Shown: piece after piece, positions 2,791-16,032 of the stretch
How positions within the stretch are numbered: the first letter of the stretch is position 1
Layout of the letters: each line of letters opens with the position of its first letter
Origin: Pelagibacteraceae bacterium AG-410-N23
GTDB lineage: Bacteria > Pseudomonadota > Alphaproteobacteria > Pelagibacterales > Pelagibacteraceae
Assembly (NCBI GenBank): GCA_003215055.1
Contig: QCKW01000007.1
Span: forward strand, 1-42,372
Length of the DNA: 42,372 nucleotides
Direction: 5' to 3'
Notes under the pieces: generated by a model
What the model was told of the DNA's origin: nothing
The model's input: only the letters and a program-made list of their open reading frames with translations
Databases searched by the model: none
Made by a program: the position numbers and the translations under genes

Positions 2791-4160
2791 ATGGAATTCA
2801 TTACATATTTTTTAATTTTTTCAATATCATTTGAAAGAATTTCGAATTTTTCTTTTCTGTCATTAATATACTGGAGACTATCTGGTAAATTTTCAGTTTT
2901 TGAAATTGCATCTTCTATTGCTTTTGGAAATTTGCACGGGTGAGCAGTCGATAATACAACACAATTTTTTTCCAATCCTAATTTTCTCACAGCACCGATA
3001 CCCACTGCAGTATGAGGATCAATTACCATCTGATGTTCATCATTAATAATCTTTATCATTTCAACAGTTTCATTTTCATCAAGCATCTCAGATATAAAAT
3101 TTTTCTTAATTTTATCTAAATCGTTTTTATCAATTTTATAAGTATTTTTTTTTATTTCAGCCATTACATCTTTTGTAACTTCTGAGTTACAATCTTTTAT
3201 GTCATATAAAAGTCTTTCGAAATTACTTGCTATTTGTATATCCATACTTGGAGTATTTGTTTCCTCAACTTTCTTTTGAGTATAATCACCTCCTGATATT
3301 GCTCTATGAAGTATGTCATTTTTATTAGTAGCAACGATTAATTTATCAATTGGAAGTCCTAGTTTTTTTGCTAAATAACCAGCATAAATATCTCCAAAAT
3401 TACCTGTTGGAACACTAAAGGATAGAGATTGACCTTTCCCAACTTTAAAGTAAGCATAAAAATAATACACAGTTTGGGCAATAATTCTTGCCCAATTAAT
3501 TGAGTTTACACCGGACATATTAATTGTTTTAGAAAATTTTTCATCATTGAACATTGCTTTTACCAAATTTTGACAATCATCAAAGTTACCTTCTACAGCA
3601 ATGTTAAAAACATTGCTCTCTTCATGTATTGTCATTAGTTTTCTTTGTACCGGTGAAATTCTATTATTTGGGTGTAATACAAAAACATTTAAATTATTTT
3701 TTCCTTTTAAAGCATCTATAGCAGCTGCACCTGTATCACCTGAAGTTGCTACTATTATGTTAATTTTTTTTTGATTTTGTCCTAAATGATATTGATAAAA
3801 ATTACCTATTAATTGCATTGCGATATCTTTAAAAGCCAGTGTAGGGCCATGAAACAATTCTAAAACTTTTAAATTTCCTAAATTAGAGATTTTAACAACC
3901 TCATTAGTTCTGAAATTTGAGTATGATTTTGATATCAATAAATTTAATTCATCTTTAGATATGAAATCTCCAATAAATGGATAAATTATTTCAGCCGCTA
4001 AATCATTGTAACTAAGATTTTTTAAATTATGTAATTCTTCTTTTTTAAATGGTTTGATTAATTTAGGGACAAATAGCCCTCCATCATCTGCTAGACCTTT
4101 GAGAAAAACTTCCTTAAAAGTAAAGTTTTTCTGATTATTCCTTGTACTAATGTAATTCAT
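2787..4160 (-). CDS. thrC: Threonine synthase
   Basis: PLP enzyme converting O-phosphohomoserine to L-threonine, the step after ThrB. The length of 457 residues matches the long, E. coli-like class. The PLP lysine is K111 in GPTLAFKD, and the phosphate-binding SGDTGAA loop follows at about residues 155-161. The N-terminal YISTRN...DGGLFVP signature is also present. The ATG directly follows the surf1 stop, and the stop overlaps the peroxiredoxin start (ATGA). Sitting at the end of the cytochrome oxidase run, it is probably transcribed at least partly from the cox promoter. Confidence 0.96.
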   Translation of the reverse strand: MNYISTRNNQKNFTFKEVFLKGLADDGGLFVPKLIKPFKKEELHNLKNLSYNDLAAEIIYPFIGDFISKDELNLLISKSYSNFRTNEVVKISNLGNLKVLELFHGPTLAFKDIAMQLIGNFYQYHLGQNQKKINIIVATSGDTGAAAIDALKGKNNLNVFVLHPNNRISPVQRKLMTIHEESNVFNIAVEGNFDDCQNLVKAMFNDEKFSKTINMSGVNSINWARIIAQTVYYFYAYFKVGKGQSLSFSVPTGNFGDIYAGYLAKKLGLPIDKLIVATNKNDILHRAISGGDYTQKKVEETNTPSMDIQIASNFERLLYDIKDCNSEVTKDVMAEIKKNTYKIDKNDLDKIKKNFISEMLDENETVEMIKIINDEHQMVIDPHTAVGIGAVRKLGLEKNCVVLSTAHPCKFPKAIEDAISKTENLPDSLQYINDRKEKFEILSNDIEKIKKYVMNSI

Positions 4161-4814
4161 TTAATAGTTCTTTTTTCTAAAATATAAATATAGCAAAAGA
4201 ATTGAAATCGCTAATGAAAACCATGTAATTGCGTATTTTTTATGATTATTTGAAATATTGGCAGTAATTTTTTTCGGTCTTGGAAATTGATAATTTCCAT
4301 CCAAATAAATTATGTATTTGGAAAATTTTTTACCAGTAAATTTTAAGATATCATCTCTGTTCAAGCTAAACCAATAATTTTCTTTAATATCATTATCTGG
4401 TTTAAAAATATTTTTTCTTCCCTGAGTTTTGAGAGTTCCTATTATATTATTTTGGTCTAATATATTAATTTCTGGATTATCCTTTTTTTCGAATGGTATC
4501 CAGCCTCGATTAATCAGATAATTTTCATTATTGATAGAAATTGGATTAATTACTTCAAATCCTGGCGTACCAGAGTCATTCAAATTATATAGATAAATTT
4601 GTTTTTCAAAATCAATATTACCTGATGTTTTAATTTTTAGAAAATTTTCTTTATTGGATTGAGAAAGTTCTATTGGAGGATTTTTTAATGACTCTTCAAT
4701 TTCTAAAATCAGATTATTTTTCCAATTTAATCGAATTATTTGCCAAGTACCTAATGCAATAAAAACAAATATAAAAAAAATTGTAAAAACAGAAAATAAA
4801 AACTTATGTTTCAA
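4161..4814 (-). CDS. surf1: SURF1 family cytochrome c oxidase assembly protein
   Basis: Inner-membrane factor for heme a insertion or assembly of aa3 oxidase. The 217-residue protein has the SURF1 layout: an N-terminal membrane helix (about residues 6-24) ending in LGTWQIIRLNWK, a periplasmic domain with NRGWIPF, and a C-terminal helix preceded by HKKYAITWFSLA. The start codon must be TTG at 4814: an in-frame TAA stop lies four codons upstream, and the next methionine is far inside the protein. It begins 9 bases after the ctaE stop and abuts thrC. Identity is firm from motifs plus position. Confidence 0.93.
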   Translation of the reverse strand: MKHKFLFSVFTIFFIFVFIALGTWQIIRLNWKNNLILEIEESLKNPPIELSQSNKENFLKIKTSGNIDFEKQIYLYNLNDSGTPGFEVINPISINNENYLINRGWIPFEKKDNPEINILDQNNIIGTLKTQGRKNIFKPDNDIKENYWFSLNRDDILKFTGKKFSKYIIYLDGNYQFPRPKKITANISNNHKKYAITWFSLAISILLLYLYFRKKNY

Positions 4815-4823
4815 AGAGTGAAA

Positions 4824-5612
4824 TTAACTTCCCCAAATATATATAGCTGCAAATAAGAATAACCATACAACATCAACAAAGTGCCAATACCAAGCCGCAG
4901 CTTCAAAACCGAAATGATGATCCTTATTAAAGTGACCTAATTTTCCACGCCATAAACATACTGCTAAAAAAATTGTTCCCACAATAACGTGAAAACCATG
5001 AAATCCTGTTGCCATATAAAATACTGATCCATAAATATGATCTGAAAAAGCAAATGTTGCATGGTGATATTCGTAAGCTTGTAAAGCTGTAAAGCAAACC
5101 CCAAGAATTACTGTTAAAATTAAGCCGTTTATGAAACTTTCTCTATCATCTTCTAAAAGAGCATGATGGGACCAAGTAACAGTTGTTCCTGATAACAATA
5201 GTACCAGTGTATTAATTAATGGAATATCCCAGGGATCAAAAGTTTCAATATCTTTCGGTGGCCATACATTTCCGACAAATTCATTTGGAAAAAGACTTAC
5301 ATCAAAGTAAGCCCAAAACCATGCTACAAAAAACATAACCTCTGAAGCAATAAATAATGTCATTCCATAACGATGATGAATTTGTACCACTGGAGTATGA
5401 TGTCCTTGATGTTCAGCTTCAATTACGACATCTCTAAACCACATGTAGGCTCCATAAATTAATAGAGCTAAACCTAAATACATTCCCCATGATACATCTG
5501 CATGCATATAATAAACTGCACCTAAAGCTAAAACTAAGCATGAGAAAGAGGTATAGATTGGCCATGGGCTTGGATCTACAAGGTGATAATCGTGTTTTTT
5601 TTCAGCTGACAT
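4824..5612 (-). CDS. ctaE: Cytochrome c oxidase subunit III
   Basis: Core membrane subunit of the aa3-type terminal oxidase. The 262-residue protein begins with HDYHLVDPSPWP, the typical bacterial and mitochondrial subunit III N-terminus. It contains about seven hydrophobic helices and family blocks such as SEVMFFVAWFWAYF, GTTVTWSHHALL, GFHGFHVIVGT and a C-terminal WYWHFVDVVWLFLF. The family's conserved acidic residue in SEVMFF is present. It lies between ctaG and surf1 with gaps of about 9 bases on each side. It is less A+T-rich than the enzymatic genes around it, as expected for a strongly constrained protein. Confidence 0.98.
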   Translation of the reverse strand: MSAEKKHDYHLVDPSPWPIYTSFSCLVLALGAVYYMHADVSWGMYLGLALLIYGAYMWFRDVVIEAEHQGHHTPVVQIHHRYGMTLFIASEVMFFVAWFWAYFDVSLFPNEFVGNVWPPKDIETFDPWDIPLINTLVLLLSGTTVTWSHHALLEDDRESFINGLILTVILGVCFTALQAYEYHHATFAFSDHIYGSVFYMATGFHGFHVIVGTIFLAVCLWRGKLGHFNKDHHFGFEAAAWYWHFVDVVWLFLFAAIYIWGS

Positions 5613-10444: not shown

Positions 10445-11110
10445 ATGAGAAATATTAAAGCAATAATTTTCGATGCTTATGGAACATTGTTTGATGTCAA
10501 TTCTGCTGCTGAAAAATGTAAAGATAAAATTGGTGGCAAGTGGGAAGCTTTTGCTAATTTTTGGAGAACTACACAACTAGAATACACTTGGCTTCGAAGC
10601 TTAATGGAAAGACATAAAGATTTTTGGCTAGTTACCGAGGATAGCTTAGATAAGTCAATGAAAGCTTTTGATATAGATCTTTCAATGAAAGATGAATTAC
10701 TTAATTTATATAAAGTTCTATCACCATACAAAGAAGTTCCAGAAACTCTAAAAACCCTTAAAGAAAAAAATTTTAAGTTAGCTATACTTTCAAATGGTAC
10801 CCCCTCATTACTAAATGAATTGGTTAAAAGTAATAATTTAGAAAATTTATTTGATGATATATTTTCAATTGAAGAGGTTGGAATTTATAAACCCAGCTAT
10901 AAAGTTTATAATATTCCAATTAAAAAATATCATATTGAAAAAAGTGAAGTTGCTTTTTTAAGTGCCAATACTTGGGATGTTTCCGGTGGTGGAAATTATG
11001 GTTATCAATCTATTTGGATTAATAGAAACAACAATATTTTTGATAAACTTGATTATAAACCAAAATATGAATTGGATAATTTAAACAAATTGATTTCTTT
11101 ACTGAGTTAA
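10445..11110 (+). CDS. Haloacid dehalogenase, type II (HAD superfamily)
   Basis: A 221-residue HAD hydrolase. It resembles (S)-2-haloacid dehalogenases, which hydrolyse 2-haloalkanoic acids to hydroxy acids with inversion. The nucleophile is D10 in IIFDAYGTLFDV. Motif II is LSNGTP, the motif III lysine lies in KPSYKVY, and the terminal block SANTWDVSGGGNYG...IWINR matches the family's SANxWD...G...WxNR signature. The cap region carries LEYTWLRSLM and FW. Substrate specificity is not proven by sequence, since such enzymes in marine bacteria may act on other small acids. It is followed after 17 bases by the sugar cassette, with which it has no obvious functional tie. Confidence 0.87.
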   Translation: MRNIKAIIFDAYGTLFDVNSAAEKCKDKIGGKWEAFANFWRTTQLEYTWLRSLMERHKDFWLVTEDSLDKSMKAFDIDLSMKDELLNLYKVLSPYKEVPETLKTLKEKNFKLAILSNGTPSLLNELVKSNNLENLFDDIFSIEEVGIYKPSYKVYNIPIKKYHIEKSEVAFLSANTWDVSGGGNYGYQSIWINRNNNIFDKLDYKPKYELDNLNKLISLLS

Positions 11111-11127
11111 ATATATATACACACTTT

Positions 11128-12336
11128 ATGAAAAAATTTATCTCTTATGGAAAAAATGTTTATGATCATGCAGAAATAAATGCTGTCATAAAAACTTTAA
11201 AAAACTCTACACAGATGGGAAAATCTGTTTCTATTTTTGAAAAAAAAATTGCAAGTATGTTTGGCAAGAAATATGGTTTGATGGTTAACTCAGGATCTTC
11301 TGCTTTAGTTTTAGCTTTTAAATCATTAAATTTAAAAAAAGGTAGTGAAGTAATCACTCCATGTCTAAATTTTGGAACTGCAGTGTCCTCAATTATGTTA
11401 AATGATTTGGTGCCTGTATTAGTAGATGTAAATATTAGAACATTACAAATAAATCCTGAATTAATAAAAAAAAAAATTACCAAAAAAACTAAAGCTATTC
11501 TAATACCGAATTTGATTGGAAACATACCTGATTGGAAAAAAATAAAACAAATAGCAAAAAAAAATAATTTATGGATAATTGAAGACTCGGCAGATACGCT
11601 GGGTGCAAAGATAGATAATAAACCAACTGGCACTTTTAGTGATATTTCAATTACTAGTTTTTATGGTTCACATGTAATCAGTTGTGCAGGAAATGGTGGA
11701 ATGCTTGTTACTAATAATAAAAATATTTTTACGAAATCAAAAATCTTGAGAAGTTGGGGAAGACTATCAACTTTGATGAAAGATTCTGAAAATATTAAAG
11801 ATAGATTAAAGATTAAACTGAAAGGATTTGATTTTGATAGAAAATTCGTTTTTTCAGAAGCGGGTTATAATTTTGAACCCTCTGAAATTGGTGCCTCTTT
11901 TGGTTTAGTTCAGTTAAGTAAATTTAAATATTTCAGTTCATTGAGAAATAAAAATTTTAAATTTCATCTCAAATTTTTCAAGAAAATTGAAAAATTTTTT
12001 TTTACACCTGATATAAATAGCAATGTTTATACAAATTTTTTAGCTTACCCAATAATATTAAAACCAAATAAGTATTTTAAAAGGAAAGATCTACAAATTT
12101 TTTTAGAAAATAATAAAATTCAGACTAGACCAATATTTAGTGGAAATATTCTAAGGCATCCTGCTTTTACAAAAATTATTTCAAAACAAAATAAAATAAA
12201 CCAATTTAAAAATGCAGATTATATAATGCAATATGGTATTTTAATTGGTTGTCACCAGGGACTCAAAAAAAAAGATTTAAATTTCATACATAATACAATT
12301 ATTAAATTTTTAAAATCAAAAAGTGTCAAATATTAA
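11128..12336 (+). CDS. RfbH/ColD-like PLP-dependent sugar dehydrase (DegT/DnrJ/EryC1/StrS fold), Fe-S cysteines absent
   Basis: A 402-residue member of the DegT aminotransferase superfamily. The usual PLP-lysine position is His (H182 in SFYGSH), the hallmark of the CDP-4-keto-6-deoxyglucose 3-dehydrase (RfbH/E1) and ColD branch, which remove the C3 hydroxyl instead of aminating. Supporting blocks are NSGSSAL, VITPCLNFGTAV, EDSADTLGAK and TGTFSD, then SWGR, AGYNFEPSEIGASFG and TRPIFSGNILRHPAF. After SWGR, where RfbH carries its [2Fe-2S] cysteine cluster, this protein has none. It may therefore work like ColD, or be a different dehydratase. The partners RfbG-like and RfbF-like follow downstream. 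It overlaps the glycosyltransferase start by 14 bases. Family is sure; exact reaction is not. Confidence 0.8.
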   Translation: MKKFISYGKNVYDHAEINAVIKTLKNSTQMGKSVSIFEKKIASMFGKKYGLMVNSGSSALVLAFKSLNLKKGSEVITPCLNFGTAVSSIMLNDLVPVLVDVNIRTLQINPELIKKKITKKTKAILIPNLIGNIPDWKKIKQIAKKNNLWIIEDSADTLGAKIDNKPTGTFSDISITSFYGSHVISCAGNGGMLVTNNKNIFTKSKILRSWGRLSTLMKDSENIKDRLKIKLKGFDFDRKFVFSEAGYNFEPSEIGASFGLVQLSKFKYFSSLRNKNFKFHLKFFKKIEKFFFTPDINSNVYTNFLAYPIILKPNKYFKRKDLQIFLENNKIQTRPIFSGNILRHPAFTKIISKQNKINQFKNADYIMQYGILIGCHQGLKKKDLNFIHNTIIKFLKSKSVKY

Positions 12337-13027
12337 ATATTCAATAATATGTTGTTACTATAATGAGATAAATGTTCTTAAAAAGAAATTTGTTCCTTTA
12401 TTAAATGAAATAAAAAATTTACCTTTTTCGTTTGAAATATTCATTTGTGATAATAATTCTAATGATGGTTCTAAAGAATTCTTAAGAGAGATCGAAACTA
12501 AGCAAATGAATGATGTAAAATTTGTATATAATGAAAAAAATCTTGGAAAAGGAGGATCTATTAAAAAATGTATCTCTCTCTCCAAGGGAGAATTTATAGT
12601 AATTTTTGATGTCGATGAATATCTTATTGATGATTTAATTAAAGCGGATAATTTTTTGAATATAAATAAACAAACTCAATTTTTAGTAGGATCAAGAGTA
12701 ATGCACCAAAAAAGATTTATTTATAAAAAAAATTATTATGGTGTAAGAATAATGACAATGTTGATTAATTTTTTGTATAAAACTAAAATTTCAGATTCTG
12801 CTGGAGCTACAAAAATATTTAAAAAAGAGATATATGATGGTTTGAGTATAGCAACTAATGGTTTTAATTTTGAGTTCGAAGTTTTGTGTAAATTTGCAAA
12901 AAAAGGTTATAATGTCTCAGAATTTCCAATAGAGTACTTTCCAAGATCAATAGCTGAAGGAAAAAAATTACGAGCCTTTAAGGATGGATCTTTAATTTTA
13001 TGGACAATATTAAAAAATTATTTTTAA
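12323..13027 (+). CDS. Glycosyltransferase family 2 (GT-A fold)
   Basis: A 234-residue soluble GT2 enzyme. The N-terminal nucleotide-binding strand is YSIICCYYNE, followed by ICDNNSNDGS, the GKGGSIKKCI region and the metal-binding DxD motif FDVDEY (D96, D98). The layout resembles dolichol-phosphate-mannose-synthase-like and polyprenyl-phosphate sugar transferases, but there are no C-terminal membrane helices. The likely start is GTG at 12323, inside the end of the preceding gene; no better in-frame ATG precedes the conserved strand. It lies in the middle of a CDP-sugar cassette, so it probably transfers a sugar during lipopolysaccharide or exopolysaccharide assembly. Donor and acceptor cannot be deduced. 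Confidence 0.85.
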   Translation: MSNIKYSIICCYYNEINVLKKKFVPLLNEIKNLPFSFEIFICDNNSNDGSKEFLREIETKQMNDVKFVYNEKNLGKGGSIKKCISLSKGEFIVIFDVDEYLIDDLIKADNFLNINKQTQFLVGSRVMHQKRFIYKKNYYGVRIMTMLINFLYKTKISDSAGATKIFKKEIYDGLSIATNGFNFEFEVLCKFAKKGYNVSEFPIEYFPRSIAEGKKLRAFKDGSLILWTILKNYF

Positions 13028-13028
13028 A

Positions 13029-14015
13029 ATGAATAATAAAAATATACTTGTAACTGGTGGTCTTGGTATTTTAGGATCTGCACTTGTCAAAAAATTAAAT
13101 CAAAAAAAGATATATAATATTTTTATTTTAGATAGATCTAAAAATATAAAAAAAATAAAAGTTTTAGAGCTTGGTAATTTAAAAAAAGTAAATATTATTA
13201 AAGGAAACTTTAATGATTATAAAACTGTATTTAAAGTGATTAAAAATAAAAATATAAGCACGATATTTCATCTTGGTGCAATCACACAAGTAATTGATGC
13301 CTATAAAAGTCCAATGGAAACATTCAATTCAAATATCATTGGAACAATAAATATTTTAGAGAGTATAAGAAACTTAAAAAAAAAAATAAATCTGATATTC
13401 AGTTCATCAGACAAAGCATATGGCTCTCTCGTTGGAAATTCTTATCTAGAAAATCACCAACTAAAAGGAAATTTTCCTTATGATGTCTCAAAATCTGCAT
13501 CAGATTTAATTGTTCAAAGTTATGTAAAAACTTACAATCTAAAAGCTGGGATTATCCGATCAGGGAATATTTATGGACCTGGTGATCTAAATATGGATCG
13601 TTTAGTTCCTCATGTAATAATTTCATCAATATTAAAAAAAAGATCTATTTTAAGATCAAATGGAAAATTAATACGAGACTACATATATGTTGATGATGTT
13701 GCTAATGCTTATTTTATGTTGATGAAAAAAATGATTAATTCTAAAGAAAGATTAAGAATTTATAATGTTGGCTCAAAAGAAAATTTAACAGTAAAAAATT
13801 TTGTAAAATTGATTACTATTATGATTAATAAAAAAGAAATTTACCCAATTATAAAAAATAATTCTAAAATTGAAATTTATAAACAAAAACTCAATTATAT
13901 AAAAATTAAAAGAGATTTGAAGTGGGCACCAAAATCTAATTTCAAAAAATCTTTAAAAAATACAATTGAATGGTATAAAAAGAATATTGATTTTTTTAAT
14001 GGTAAATTAAATTAA
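13029..14015 (+). CDS. rfbG: NAD-dependent sugar 4,6-dehydratase, CDP-glucose 4,6-dehydratase (RfbG)-like
   Basis: Extended short-chain dehydrogenase of 328 residues. The NAD-binding motif is VTGGLGILGSAL (residues 8-19). The active site reads FSSSDKAYG (D128, K129) and YDVSK (Y151, K155). The Ser-Asp-Lys triplet, SPMETFNSNIIGT, GNIYGPGDLNMDRLVP and RDYIYVDDV blocks are those of CDP-glucose 4,6-dehydratases rather than dTDP-glucose ones. It would convert CDP-glucose to CDP-4-keto-6-deoxyglucose using the product of the RfbF-like gene downstream. It begins one base after the glycosyltransferase stop. A GDP- or UDP-sugar relative cannot be excluded, but the adjacent cytidylyltransferase supports the CDP assignment. 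Confidence 0.82.
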   Translation: MNNKNILVTGGLGILGSALVKKLNQKKIYNIFILDRSKNIKKIKVLELGNLKKVNIIKGNFNDYKTVFKVIKNKNISTIFHLGAITQVIDAYKSPMETFNSNIIGTINILESIRNLKKKINLIFSSSDKAYGSLVGNSYLENHQLKGNFPYDVSKSASDLIVQSYVKTYNLKAGIIRSGNIYGPGDLNMDRLVPHVIISSILKKRSILRSNGKLIRDYIYVDDVANAYFMLMKKMINSKERLRIYNVGSKENLTVKNFVKLITIMINKKEIYPIIKNNSKIEIYKQKLNYIKIKRDLKWAPKSNFKKSLKNTIEWYKKNIDFFNGKLN

Positions 14016-14035
14016 AATAATCTAATTAATTAAAT

Positions 14036-14761
14036 ATGCATACAGTATTTTTAGCAGGAGGAATGGGCACTCGCCTATCTGAAGAAACTCATAAAATTCC
14101 TAAACCAATGATCAAAATTGGAAAATATCCAATTCTTTTTCATATTATGAAACATTATTCAGATTTCAATTTTAATAAATTCATAGTCTGTGGAGGATAT
14201 AAATATAATTATATTAAAAACTTTTTTCTTCAAAATAAAAAACTCATAAAGAAAAAAAAATTTAAATGGGATGTGAATATTATAAATACAGGACTTAAGA
14301 CACAAACAGGTGCAAGAATAAAAAAAATAAAAAGATATCTCAAAGATGAAAAATTATTTTTTATGACCTATGGTGACGGAGTTGCCAATGTTAATATAAA
14401 AAAAATTTTGCAATTTCATAAAAAACACAAAAAAATTGCTACATTAACTGCTGTAAGACCACTTCCAAGATTTGGAAATATTACTCTAAACAAAAATAAA
14501 GTTTCAAGTTTCAGTGAAAAAGATAGACTTCAGGAGGGATGGATTAATGGTGGTTTTTTTGTTCTCAATAGAGAAGTTTTTGACTATATTGACAACAGGG
14601 TAAATTGTATTTTTGAAAAAGAACCTCTCCAAAATTTATCTAAAAATGGTCAACTAATGGCTTTTAAACATGAGGGTTTTTGGCACCCAATGGATACTCT
14701 TAGGGATAAGAATTATTTAAATGCATTGTGTAAAAACAAAAAATTAAATTGGTTAAAATAA
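14036..14761 (+). CDS. rfbF: Glucose-1-phosphate cytidylyltransferase (RfbF-like)
   Basis: Makes CDP-glucose from CTP and glucose-1-phosphate. The 241-residue protein has the nucleotidyltransferase signature LAGGMGTRLSEET (from residue 6) and KPM, then INTGLKTQTGARIKKIK, MTYGDGVANV and LTAVRP. It ends with WINGGFFVL, FEKEPLQNLS and HPMDTLRDKNYL. The EKEPL, TGGR/TGAR and PMDTLRDK blocks are diagnostic for the cytidylyl branch and separate it from dTDP-glucose (RmlA) and UDP-glucose (GalU) enzymes. It is the last gene of the sugar cassette, 20 bases after the RfbG-like gene. Together they give the first two steps of CDP-deoxyhexose synthesis. Confidence 0.92.
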   Translation: MHTVFLAGGMGTRLSEETHKIPKPMIKIGKYPILFHIMKHYSDFNFNKFIVCGGYKYNYIKNFFLQNKKLIKKKKFKWDVNIINTGLKTQTGARIKKIKRYLKDEKLFFMTYGDGVANVNIKKILQFHKKHKKIATLTAVRPLPRFGNITLNKNKVSSFSEKDRLQEGWINGGFFVLNREVFDYIDNRVNCIFEKEPLQNLSKNGQLMAFKHEGFWHPMDTLRDKNYLNALCKNKKLNWLK

Positions 14762-14790
14762 AATTTGATATATAGGTGTGGATAGCAATT

Positions 14791-15159
14791 ATGATTAAAA
14801 TTTTAGATTTAATTGGAAGAGTTTTAATTTCTGGTATTTTTCTGTTAAGTGGTTTTAATAAAATTGGAAATTACGACGGAACAGTCGGATGGATGGAAGG
14901 TTTTGGCCTTCCAGGATTTTTATTAATACCAGCTATAATTTTAGAAATCGTTGCACCAATTTTGATTATTATTGGTTATCAAACTAAAGTTGCAGCGGCA
15001 GCTTTGAGCCTATTTTGTATTGCTACTGCAATAATATTTCATAATGATCTTGGTGATCAAATGCAATTAATAGCCTTTATGAAAAATATTGCTTTAGCTG
15101 GTGGTTTTTTATTTTTAGTTGTTAATGGTTCTAGAGGTTTTTGTTTAGACAAAAAGTAA
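14791..15159 (+). CDS. DoxX family membrane protein
   Basis: A 122-residue protein with four predicted membrane helices, matching the DoxX family (LIGRVLISGIFLLSGFNKI at the N-terminus, then GLPGFLLIPAIILEIVAPILI). DoxX-family proteins are quinone-linked or redox-associated membrane proteins of mostly unknown function. I choose the ATG at 14791. An in-frame GTG at 14776 would add only WIAI-type residues. The next genes encode a pirin and a quinone oxidoreductase, a grouping that suggests a redox or electrophile-stress theme, though this is inference. Confidence 0.85.
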   Translation: MIKILDLIGRVLISGIFLLSGFNKIGNYDGTVGWMEGFGLPGFLLIPAIILEIVAPILIIIGYQTKVAAAALSLFCIATAIIFHNDLGDQMQLIAFMKNIALAGGFLFLVVNGSRGFCLDKK

Positions 15160-15195
15160 CCTTGAATCAAATTTTAAACTCATTATTTATCACTA

Positions 15196-16032
15196 ATGAA
15201 AAATATTGAAGTAAAACAAATTATAGATCCTATTCCCGCCTCCGATGGTGCTGGTGTAAAATTAAAAAGGAGTATTGGCGTCAACCCAAACTACTTTGAT
15301 CCATTTTTGATGTTGGACGAATTTGGTTCAGAAAAAAGTGAAGATTATATTGCAGGTTTTCCTCCACACCCTCATAGAGGCATCGAAACAGTTACCTATA
15401 TGCTTGCAGGAAATTTCGAACACAAAGATAGCACTGGCGGTGAAGGGAGAATGACGGCTGGAGATGTTCAATGGATGAAAACAGGAAGCGGAATTATCCA
15501 TTCAGAAATGCCTGCTATGAAAGAAGGTAAACTTCACGGTTTTCAATTATGGATTAATATGCCAGCAAAATTAAAAATGAGTAAGCCTGAGTATATTTAT
15601 ATTGATGCTGATGAAATGAGTGTTCATATAGATGATGATAAACAAGTAAAAGTTATTGCTGGTAAATTTGAAAAAGCAGAAGGACCTGTAAAGGGACATA
15701 ATGTTGAACCTATTTATCTCGATGTTGAACTAAACAAAGAAAAAGAATTTAACTTTAATATACCTTCTATGCACAATACCTTTGTTTATTTAATTAATGG
15801 TGAAATAGAAATTGGAAGTAAAAAACACGATAATGTTAAAGATAGTACTTTAATCCTGCTTACAAATGGTGAAGAATTAAAAGTAAAAGCAAAATCGAAA
15901 GCGAAATTTTTAGTTATATCTGGCAAACCAATTAATGAGGAAATTGCAAGAGGAGGCCCTTTTGTAATGAATACTAAAGCAGAAATCTTGCAAGCAGTTC
16001 AAGATTATCATAATGGTACATTTGTAAAATGA
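15196..16032 (+). CDS. Pirin family protein (bicupin)
   Basis: A 278-residue two-domain cupin. Metal ligands typical of pirins are visible: H58 and H60 in PPHPHRGIET, then H102 and E104 in GIIHSEM. The blocks GGEGRMTAGDVQWM and HGFQLWINMP complete the N-terminal cupin, and the C-terminal half ends with GGPFVMN. Bacterial pirins such as YhhW have quercetin 2,3-dioxygenase activity in vitro, but the physiological role is unclear. The ATGA overlap with the following quinone oxidoreductase (16029-16032) argues for joint expression. Confidence 0.92.
   Translation: MKNIEVKQIIDPIPASDGAGVKLKRSIGVNPNYFDPFLMLDEFGSEKSEDYIAGFPPHPHRGIETVTYMLAGNFEHKDSTGGEGRMTAGDVQWMKTGSGIIHSEMPAMKEGKLHGFQLWINMPAKLKMSKPEYIYIDADEMSVHIDDDKQVKVIAGKFEKAEGPVKGHNVEPIYLDVELNKEKEFNFNIPSMHNTFVYLINGEIEIGSKKHDNVKDSTLILLTNGEELKVKAKSKAKFLVISGKPINEEIARGGPFVMNTKAEILQAVQDYHNGTFVK

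Follow-up and report, generated by a model that had tools for sequence, protein, structure and literature searches.

A His-type DegT-fold enzyme without iron-sulfur cluster ligands in a SAR11 sugar islet: a proposed CDP-4-keto-6-deoxyglucose 3-dehydratase

Introduction

Can a CDP sugar lose its C3 hydroxyl through an enzyme of the E1 (RfbH) kind that has no ligands for an iron-sulfur cluster? The question is raised by P0001, an open reading frame in a 42,372-nucleotide stretch (the window) of Pelagibacteraceae bacterium AG-410-N23, which forms the start of contig C7 in an assembly of 923,408 bases and 36 contigs that is about 80% complete. E1, the known enzyme for this step on CDP sugars, depends on an iron-sulfur cluster and a partner protein. 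For GDP sugars, a C3 dehydration is established that uses PMP and a His base, releases its product by hydrolysis and regenerates PMP with glutamate, all without a reductase (PMC8987622, PMC10440746). A survey of the open-licence literature found no description of a cluster-free CDP-sugar 3-dehydratase, and papers on an octose ketoreductase, paulomycin and a macrolactam, considered as prior art, do not describe this combination. A sequence-only reading of the locus had proposed that P0001 performs ColD-like dehydration on a CDP sugar. The follow-up reported here upholds the His-type, cluster-free nature of the enzyme and its CDP-glucose context, but not a kinship with ColD in particular. It is considered probable that P0001 is a cluster-free CDP-4-keto-6-deoxyglucose 3-dehydratase with a ColD-like, glutamate-recharged PMP chemistry, the substrate, the reaction and the mode of release all being predicted.

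The gene and its islet

P0001 begins with ATG and encodes 402 amino acids (Table 1), and the RfbH-like sequence blocks quoted in the earlier reading are all present in its translation. The protein is a member of the DegT/DnrJ/EryC1/StrS superfamily (PF01041, 253.5 bits, gathering score 19.8), and a search of PDB sequences returned E1 first (3bcx, 213 bits) and ColD next (about 162 bits). Against the E1/RfbH profile NF011936 it scores 299.1 bits, which is below the cut-off of 423; four Cys-bearing E1 controls reach 673-784 bits. PDB entry 9wvy, a putative NDP-4-keto-6-deoxyglucose-3-dehydratase, was rejected as a close match, its 100-107 bits being less than those of perosamine synthase and other aminotransferases.

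Four genes, coding for P0001, a glycosyltransferase, an SDR and a cytidylyltransferase, constitute an islet located between HAD and DoxX/pirin genes at a variable site (window 10445-15196). In a comparison of the best 19 of 46 other matching genomes, 18 of the 19 same-genus pirin loci have HAD and pirin no more than about 1.3 kb apart, without any of the four islet genes in that interval; the nineteenth locus ends at a contig edge. The HAD gene (10445-11110) was rejected as a cassette member, since it is a flanking gene also found at the cassette-free site in these 18 of 19 relatives' loci. The islet is present at the pirin site in the window and in the nearest named loci, those of Pelagibacteraceae AG-422-B19 and AG-916-A10 (L005 and L006, 76-77% identity). 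Both of these islets add a 457-aa PMT_2-like gene. Neither a ThDP enzyme gene nor a clear 4-ketoreductase gene was found in the window islet. A second His-type paralogue with SFYYSHQITAGEGG occurs in the same genome (L003, G000 contig C4:9-791), where it is ended by the contig edge.

Table 1. Features of the window and of P0001, with positions in the window
Feature	Position	Strand	Basis or remark
P0001, His-type DegT-fold enzyme of the D clade; proposed CDP-4-keto-6-deoxyglucose 3-dehydratase without Fe-S cluster	11128..12336	+	predicted from sequence
Ala155 codon, column of E1 cluster ligand Cys193	11590..11592	+	alignment
His182 codon, PLP-lysine position (E1 His220)	11671..11673	+	alignment
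Residues 212-240, counterpart of the E1 cluster loop, no Cys, lower model confidence	11761..11847	+	alignment, model
Family 2 glycosyltransferase, GTG start	12323..13027	+	14-base overlap with P0001 3' end
P0002, extended SDR, proposed CDP-glucose 4,6-dehydratase, SSDKAY triad	13029..14015	+	below TIGR02622 cut-off
P0002 Asp128-Lys129 codons, Asp-Lys of the RfbG triad	13410..13415	+	
P0003, RfbF-like glucose-1-phosphate cytidylyltransferase	14036..14761	+	profile and PDB sequence matches

Active site and cluster-ligand columns

The two central features proposed for the active site were borne out. A His occupies the PLP-lysine position, His182 of P0001 aligning with His220 of E1, and none of the four E1 ligand columns holds a Cys: at columns 193, 251, 253 and 261 the alignment places A155, S214, L216 and I223, and the three cysteines of the protein (79, 186 and 375) all lie outside the E1 cluster positions. 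The earlier reading had located the four E1 cysteines between the WGR and GYN blocks; this is correct for 251, 253 and 261, but C193 belongs to the IEDCC block. The spacing of the cluster cysteines in E1 is C-X57-C-X1-C-X7-C, a motif that Agnihotri reportedly gave in the same form in 2004. At the level of sequence, P0001 is confirmed as a His-type enzyme without [2Fe-2S] ligands.

The AlphaFold2 model of P0001 has a mean pLDDT of 92.0 and a pTM of 0.91. Foldseek places E1 first (TM 0.90), with ColD at 0.87, and the Z scores are 51.3 for E1, 50.6 for perosamine synthase and 49.5 for ColD; since the three are within 2 Z units, fold comparison was rejected as a discriminator. The loop of residues 212-240 is nearly of E1 length; only the last two residues are modelled with less confidence than this loop, whose block means are 64-79.

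Three classes of His-type enzymes

Homologues were compared at the PLP position and at the cluster columns in a set of 162 distinct proteins of at least 340 aa, a count that leaves out shorter proteins and duplicates, the end-cut paralogue L003, a partial protein (L083/L106) and loci added later. The PLP position is His in 101 and Lys in 61. Three classes of His-type proteins were distinguished: E1 (39 proteins), with Cys at 193, 251, 253 and 261; the ColD type (16, the E. coli enzyme among them), where Arg occupies 251; and a class here called D (46, P0001 among them), in which 251 is Ser and neither 253 nor 261 is Cys. The classes were drawn by the 251 column, so that Ser251 is true of D by definition; a partial set of the loop cysteines (251/253/261) was found in none of the 101 His-type proteins, and no protein fell outside the three classes. 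The E1 controls come from the same sources as D, four of them from SAR11 itself (L084-L087), which argues that neither lineage nor sequencing explains why the cysteines are missing. A lone Cys193, as in ColD types, is present in six of the 46 D proteins, the S. meliloti protein and some actinobacterial ones being among the six. Outside the cluster site, Cys375 of P0001 (in LIGCHQG) is kept in 43 of the 46.

Two further columns separate His-type from Lys enzymes. Arg and Gly, at E1 positions 374 and 379, are invariant in the His-type proteins (101/101), whereas among the 61 Lys enzymes Arg is found at 374 in 21% and Gly at 379 in none. This distribution speaks for a dehydratase and against an aminotransferase that has lost its Lys.

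In a tree of 94 rows (with 20 of the 39 E1 and 14 of the 61 Lys rows, L006 and L178 being omitted as near-copies), each class forms one clade, with SH-aLRT values of 100 for D, 100 for E1, 91 for the ColD type and 99 for Lys. A 55-row tree, which is a subset of these rows with half of the E1 rows, gives 100/100 for D, 100/100 for E1, 99/96 for the ColD type and 100/99 for Lys; in it P0001 falls outside both the E1 clade and the ColD-type clade, and the His-type enzymes are jointly separate from the Lys enzymes (100/99). No Lys enzyme was found inside the D clade in either tree. Clustering with ordinary aminotransferases, which the earlier reading had named as a refuting outcome, did not occur, D standing apart from the Lys class. 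A special closeness to ColD was not recovered: D is its own clade, and clades of D+E1 (p-AU 0.569) and of D+ColD (p-AU 0.245) are both not rejected. Being its own clade, D is not E1 with a recent loss of the cluster.

Gene context of the D class

The D clade comprises two subclades with 22 tree rows each, D-I (the window type) and D-II. In D-I, 14/22 loci have RfbF and/or RfbG no more than 8 kb away, or 15/22 when the window's own RfbF is counted (the short window locus cuts this gene off), and eight of the 22, the window's own short locus among them, have no CDP-glucose gene in the available flank; RmlA or RmlB was found within 8 kb in none of the 22. In D-II the picture is reversed, with RmlA or RmlB in 13/22 and RfbF or RfbG in 0/22. 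The Fisher p values for these contexts (5.6e-6 and 1.9e-5) exaggerate the contrast, because related loci are treated as independent and the flanks are unequal. Several relatives have such operons: rfbF-rfbG-D-methyltransferase-SDR-GT2 in L132, L133 and L137, and rfbF-rfbG-D-SDR-GT2 in a row on pSymB of S. meliloti (L131; protein matches in an unannotated record), while in Ensifer (L197) the RfbF, RfbG, D and GT2-like matches are consecutive and an SDR match is present in the flank. In L193 the genes rfbF, rfbG and D are accompanied on the same strand by those of an RmlD-like SDR and of a flavoprotein from the old-yellow-enzyme family, a possible reductase (3455-5436, minus strand).

Within the window islet, P0003 scores 290.9 bits against TIGR02623, just below the cut-off of 300.25, and 237 bits against the sequence of PDB 1tzf, the next PDB sequence reaching 66. 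P0002 is also below its cut-off (171 bits against TIGR02622, cut-off 278.45); it is the best score in the assembly, where, at about 80% completeness, no protein passes the cut-off. An RfbG over the cut-off was found in each of the five other D-I genomes searched. The triad of P0002 reads SSDKAY, and [ST]DK is common to every RfbG-like protein examined; in the 9/14 RmlB-like proteins in which the pattern could be located, it reads TDE. We infer from its sequence that P0002 carries out the RfbG step. The CDP-sugar setting claimed earlier for the locus is therefore supported by an RfbF in the islet, by the RfbG-type triad of P0002 and by relatives in rfbF-rfbG operons.

Another link is with ThDP enzymes. 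Four of the closest D-I genes to P0001 run directly into ThDP genes (L088, L193, L194 and L195). The D gene of L088 overlaps one for a 599-aa acetolactate-synthase-like (YerE-like) protein; in L194 and L195 the two halves of a split transketolase come next, and in L193 its N-terminal half, where the contig ends. E1 loci have such partners as well, TPP proteins occurring within 8 kb in 10/28, and in Desulfobaculum a split transketolase follows rfbH. Placed in a tree of ThDP enzymes, the L190 partner clusters with E1-context enzymes (100/99), and the L088 partner has one E1-context enzyme as its neighbour (84/97, not starred). A separate clade (97/96), which excludes both partners, is made up of true acetolactate synthases, the L088 genome's own among them. 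This tree is to be read with the caveats that the E1-context enzymes are not monophyletic, that L011, of neither context, falls among them and that it carries a long-branch warning. The L190 ThDP gene occupies two reading frames, of 510 and 117 aa (12301-13833, and 13739 onward). YerE transfers acetaldehyde to CDP-3,6-dideoxy-4-keto-D-glucose, the product of E1/E3 (PMC12247030).

The loci of D-II are often accompanied by dTDP-glucose genes (L089, L090, L093, L106, L191 and others), with the order RmlB-RmlA-SDR-D-RmlC in L089. The D-II gene context suggests dTDP-3,6-dideoxyhexoses as products.

The reductase question

It had been stated that no reductase gene is present in the window, and this holds for PF00175, which represents the NAD-binding domain that RfbI-type reductases carry: it has no match in the assembly, window included (about 80% complete). 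The use of this absence as evidence was not sustained. The same domain is missing from 13/13 SAR11 genomes, four of them with true E1, and is found in 10/14 control genomes; a search with the RfbI protein gave 0/13 in SAR11, no genome of that set being positive. RfbI lies within 8 kb in only 5/28 E1 loci and in 0/44 D loci, with a Fisher p of 0.007 that counts related loci as independent. Since E1-bearing SAR11 genomes also have no PF00175 match, a cluster-free mechanism cannot be argued from the absence of a reductase, but it can from that of the ligands. The SAR11 loci L107-L110 have a true four-Cys E1, and in their incomplete assemblies PF00175 finds no E3-type reductase.

Proposed reaction and its alternatives

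In the reading preferred here, CDP-glucose would be made by the RfbF-like P0003 and converted by P0002 into CDP-4-keto-6-deoxyglucose. PMP bound by P0001 would be joined to the C4 ketone of this sugar, and His182 would deprotonate PMP, which leads to loss of the C3 hydroxyl. The intermediate would then be freed by hydrolysis, as in ColD, to give CDP-4-keto-3,6-dideoxyglucose, ammonia and PLP; hydrolytic release is proposed as neither a [2Fe-2S] cluster nor an E3-type reductase was found. Glutamate would convert PLP back to PMP, and glycosylation of the product would follow at once or after another reaction whose gene lies elsewhere.

The most serious rival, although an improbable one, is that P0001 dehydrates CDP-4-keto-6-deoxyglucose like E1 and that another flavoprotein reduces the PMP-sugar intermediate, with no hydrolysis. 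An Oxidored_FMN family gene is indeed part of the D operon of the close relative L193, the D loop at the cluster site is nearly as long as in E1, and the D+E1 clade is not rejected. However, among the wide loci scanned such a flavoprotein is found near D in L193 only, and the electrons of E1 pass via its own cluster (PMC8987622), for which D has no ligands.

Less probable still is some other C3 reaction on a CDP-4-keto sugar, such as epimerisation or the release of an unsaturated keto sugar, that would feed C-methylation or ThDP branching. The next gene in L132, L133 and L137 is of the C-methyltransferase type, which needs a keto sugar and not a 3-deoxy one; but the E1 loci share these kinds of partners (TPP in 10/28, C-methyltransferases in L214 and L221) and the E1 product is 3-deoxy, and D keeps the Arg and Gly common to all His-type enzymes examined. 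It is very unlikely that P0001 is a 3-dehydratase acting here on another nucleotide, for example on dTDP-4-keto-6-deoxyglucose: although RmlA or RmlB accompany the sister subclade D-II in 13/22 loci, P0001 belongs to D-I (0/22) and the islet nucleotidyltransferase is RfbF-like. Least credible of all is a C4 aminotransferase using His, or a dead paralogue, since, although databases name the relatives of D aminotransferases, the D clade has no Lys enzyme and the His-type enzymes stand apart from Lys (100/99), an aminotransferase would remove the C4 ketone that operon partners such as the ThDP enzymes require and so deprive them of their substrate, and the intact reading frames and numerous invariant residues speak against decay.

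Relation to known enzymes

The cluster-free 3-dehydratase proposed here resembles two known systems in different respects. With E1/RfbH/DdhC, P0001 shares the fold (Foldseek TM 0.90), His for Lys and the D194 and Y217 columns, and D shares the WGR and GYN blocks, the CDP-glucose gene context and the ThDP partners. Unlike E1/RfbH, P0001 has neither Cys193/251/253/261 nor the N-terminal extension of about 30 residues, and it is only 31.6% identical to Salmonella RfbH, the two falling in separate clades. With ColD/WbdK it would share the proposed chemistry, and with ColD also His for Lys and the lack of an Fe-S cluster. On the other hand, ColD is 31% identical to P0001, belongs to the GDP pathway and differs at columns 194 (E) and 251 (R), and D lies outside the ColD clade; in place of the GDP-mannose pathway of ColD, the window islet has a cytidylyltransferase-like gene. 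P0001, which belongs to a separate clade, appears to unite the substrate context of E1, the substrate itself being a prediction, with the cofactor economy of ColD.

The GDP-heptose C3-dehydratases of C. jejuni, also of a GDP pathway, would likewise share the proposed chemistry with P0001. SpnQ-type dTDP-sugar 3-dehydratases also have His and deoxygenate C3, but they carry a cluster; a Streptomyces protein that is likely of this type (L198, whose gene neighbours one for a 2,3-dehydratase) belongs to the E1 clade and has all four Cys. D-II would use dTDP as SpnQ-type enzymes do, but has no cluster Cys. GDP-perosamine synthase has a similar fold (Z 50.6) and a Lys at the active site, as do the Lys DegT aminotransferases, which form a separate clade.

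As a tentative extension, which is held to be possible rather than probable, D may represent a third independent lineage of His-type 3-dehydratases, working with PMP and glutamate only, in which D-I replaces E1/E3 on CDP-4-keto-6-deoxyglucose and D-II deoxygenates dTDP-4-keto-6-deoxyglucose. To our knowledge, a route to dTDP-3,6-dideoxyhexoses via a D-II-type enzyme has not been described. If the proposal for P0001 is true, E1-type deoxygenation of CDP sugars would be possible without an iron-sulfur cluster or a reductase, and the question of E1 reduction against ColD hydrolysis would become testable on one substrate with two natural enzymes. It would also correct the misnaming of D proteins as aminotransferases in annotated records, and 3,6-dideoxy or branched sugars might be expected on the SAR11 cell surface. 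Recombinant E1/E3 failed to yield CDP-paratose in the hands of one group, a dysfunctional iron-sulfur cluster being suspected (PMC7851689); a cluster-free enzyme would be useful because the E1/E3 pair is hard to use.

Occurrence

Hosts of D include SAR11, rhizobia, roseobacters and actinobacteria. In the family sample P0001 has a match in 24/147 genomes (E <= 1e-60), of which four are Cys-bearing E1 and the others D, one of them partial. The class sample has matches in 13/385 genomes, L176 and L177 being E1, and the phylum sample in 29/398 (1e-50), where all but the window are E1. D was also found on plasmids of Sinorhizobium, Ensifer, Roseibium, Leisingera, Palleronia, Rhodococcus and Embleya, one of each having been checked for class. 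Finally, E1-related enzymes with a WGRGCYC...C motif occur in Synechococcus phage S-H68 (L246) and in the marine virus AG-345-D19 (L247), at about 3.9-5.2 kb; these phage enzymes have a longer Cys spacer and look like Fe-S types.
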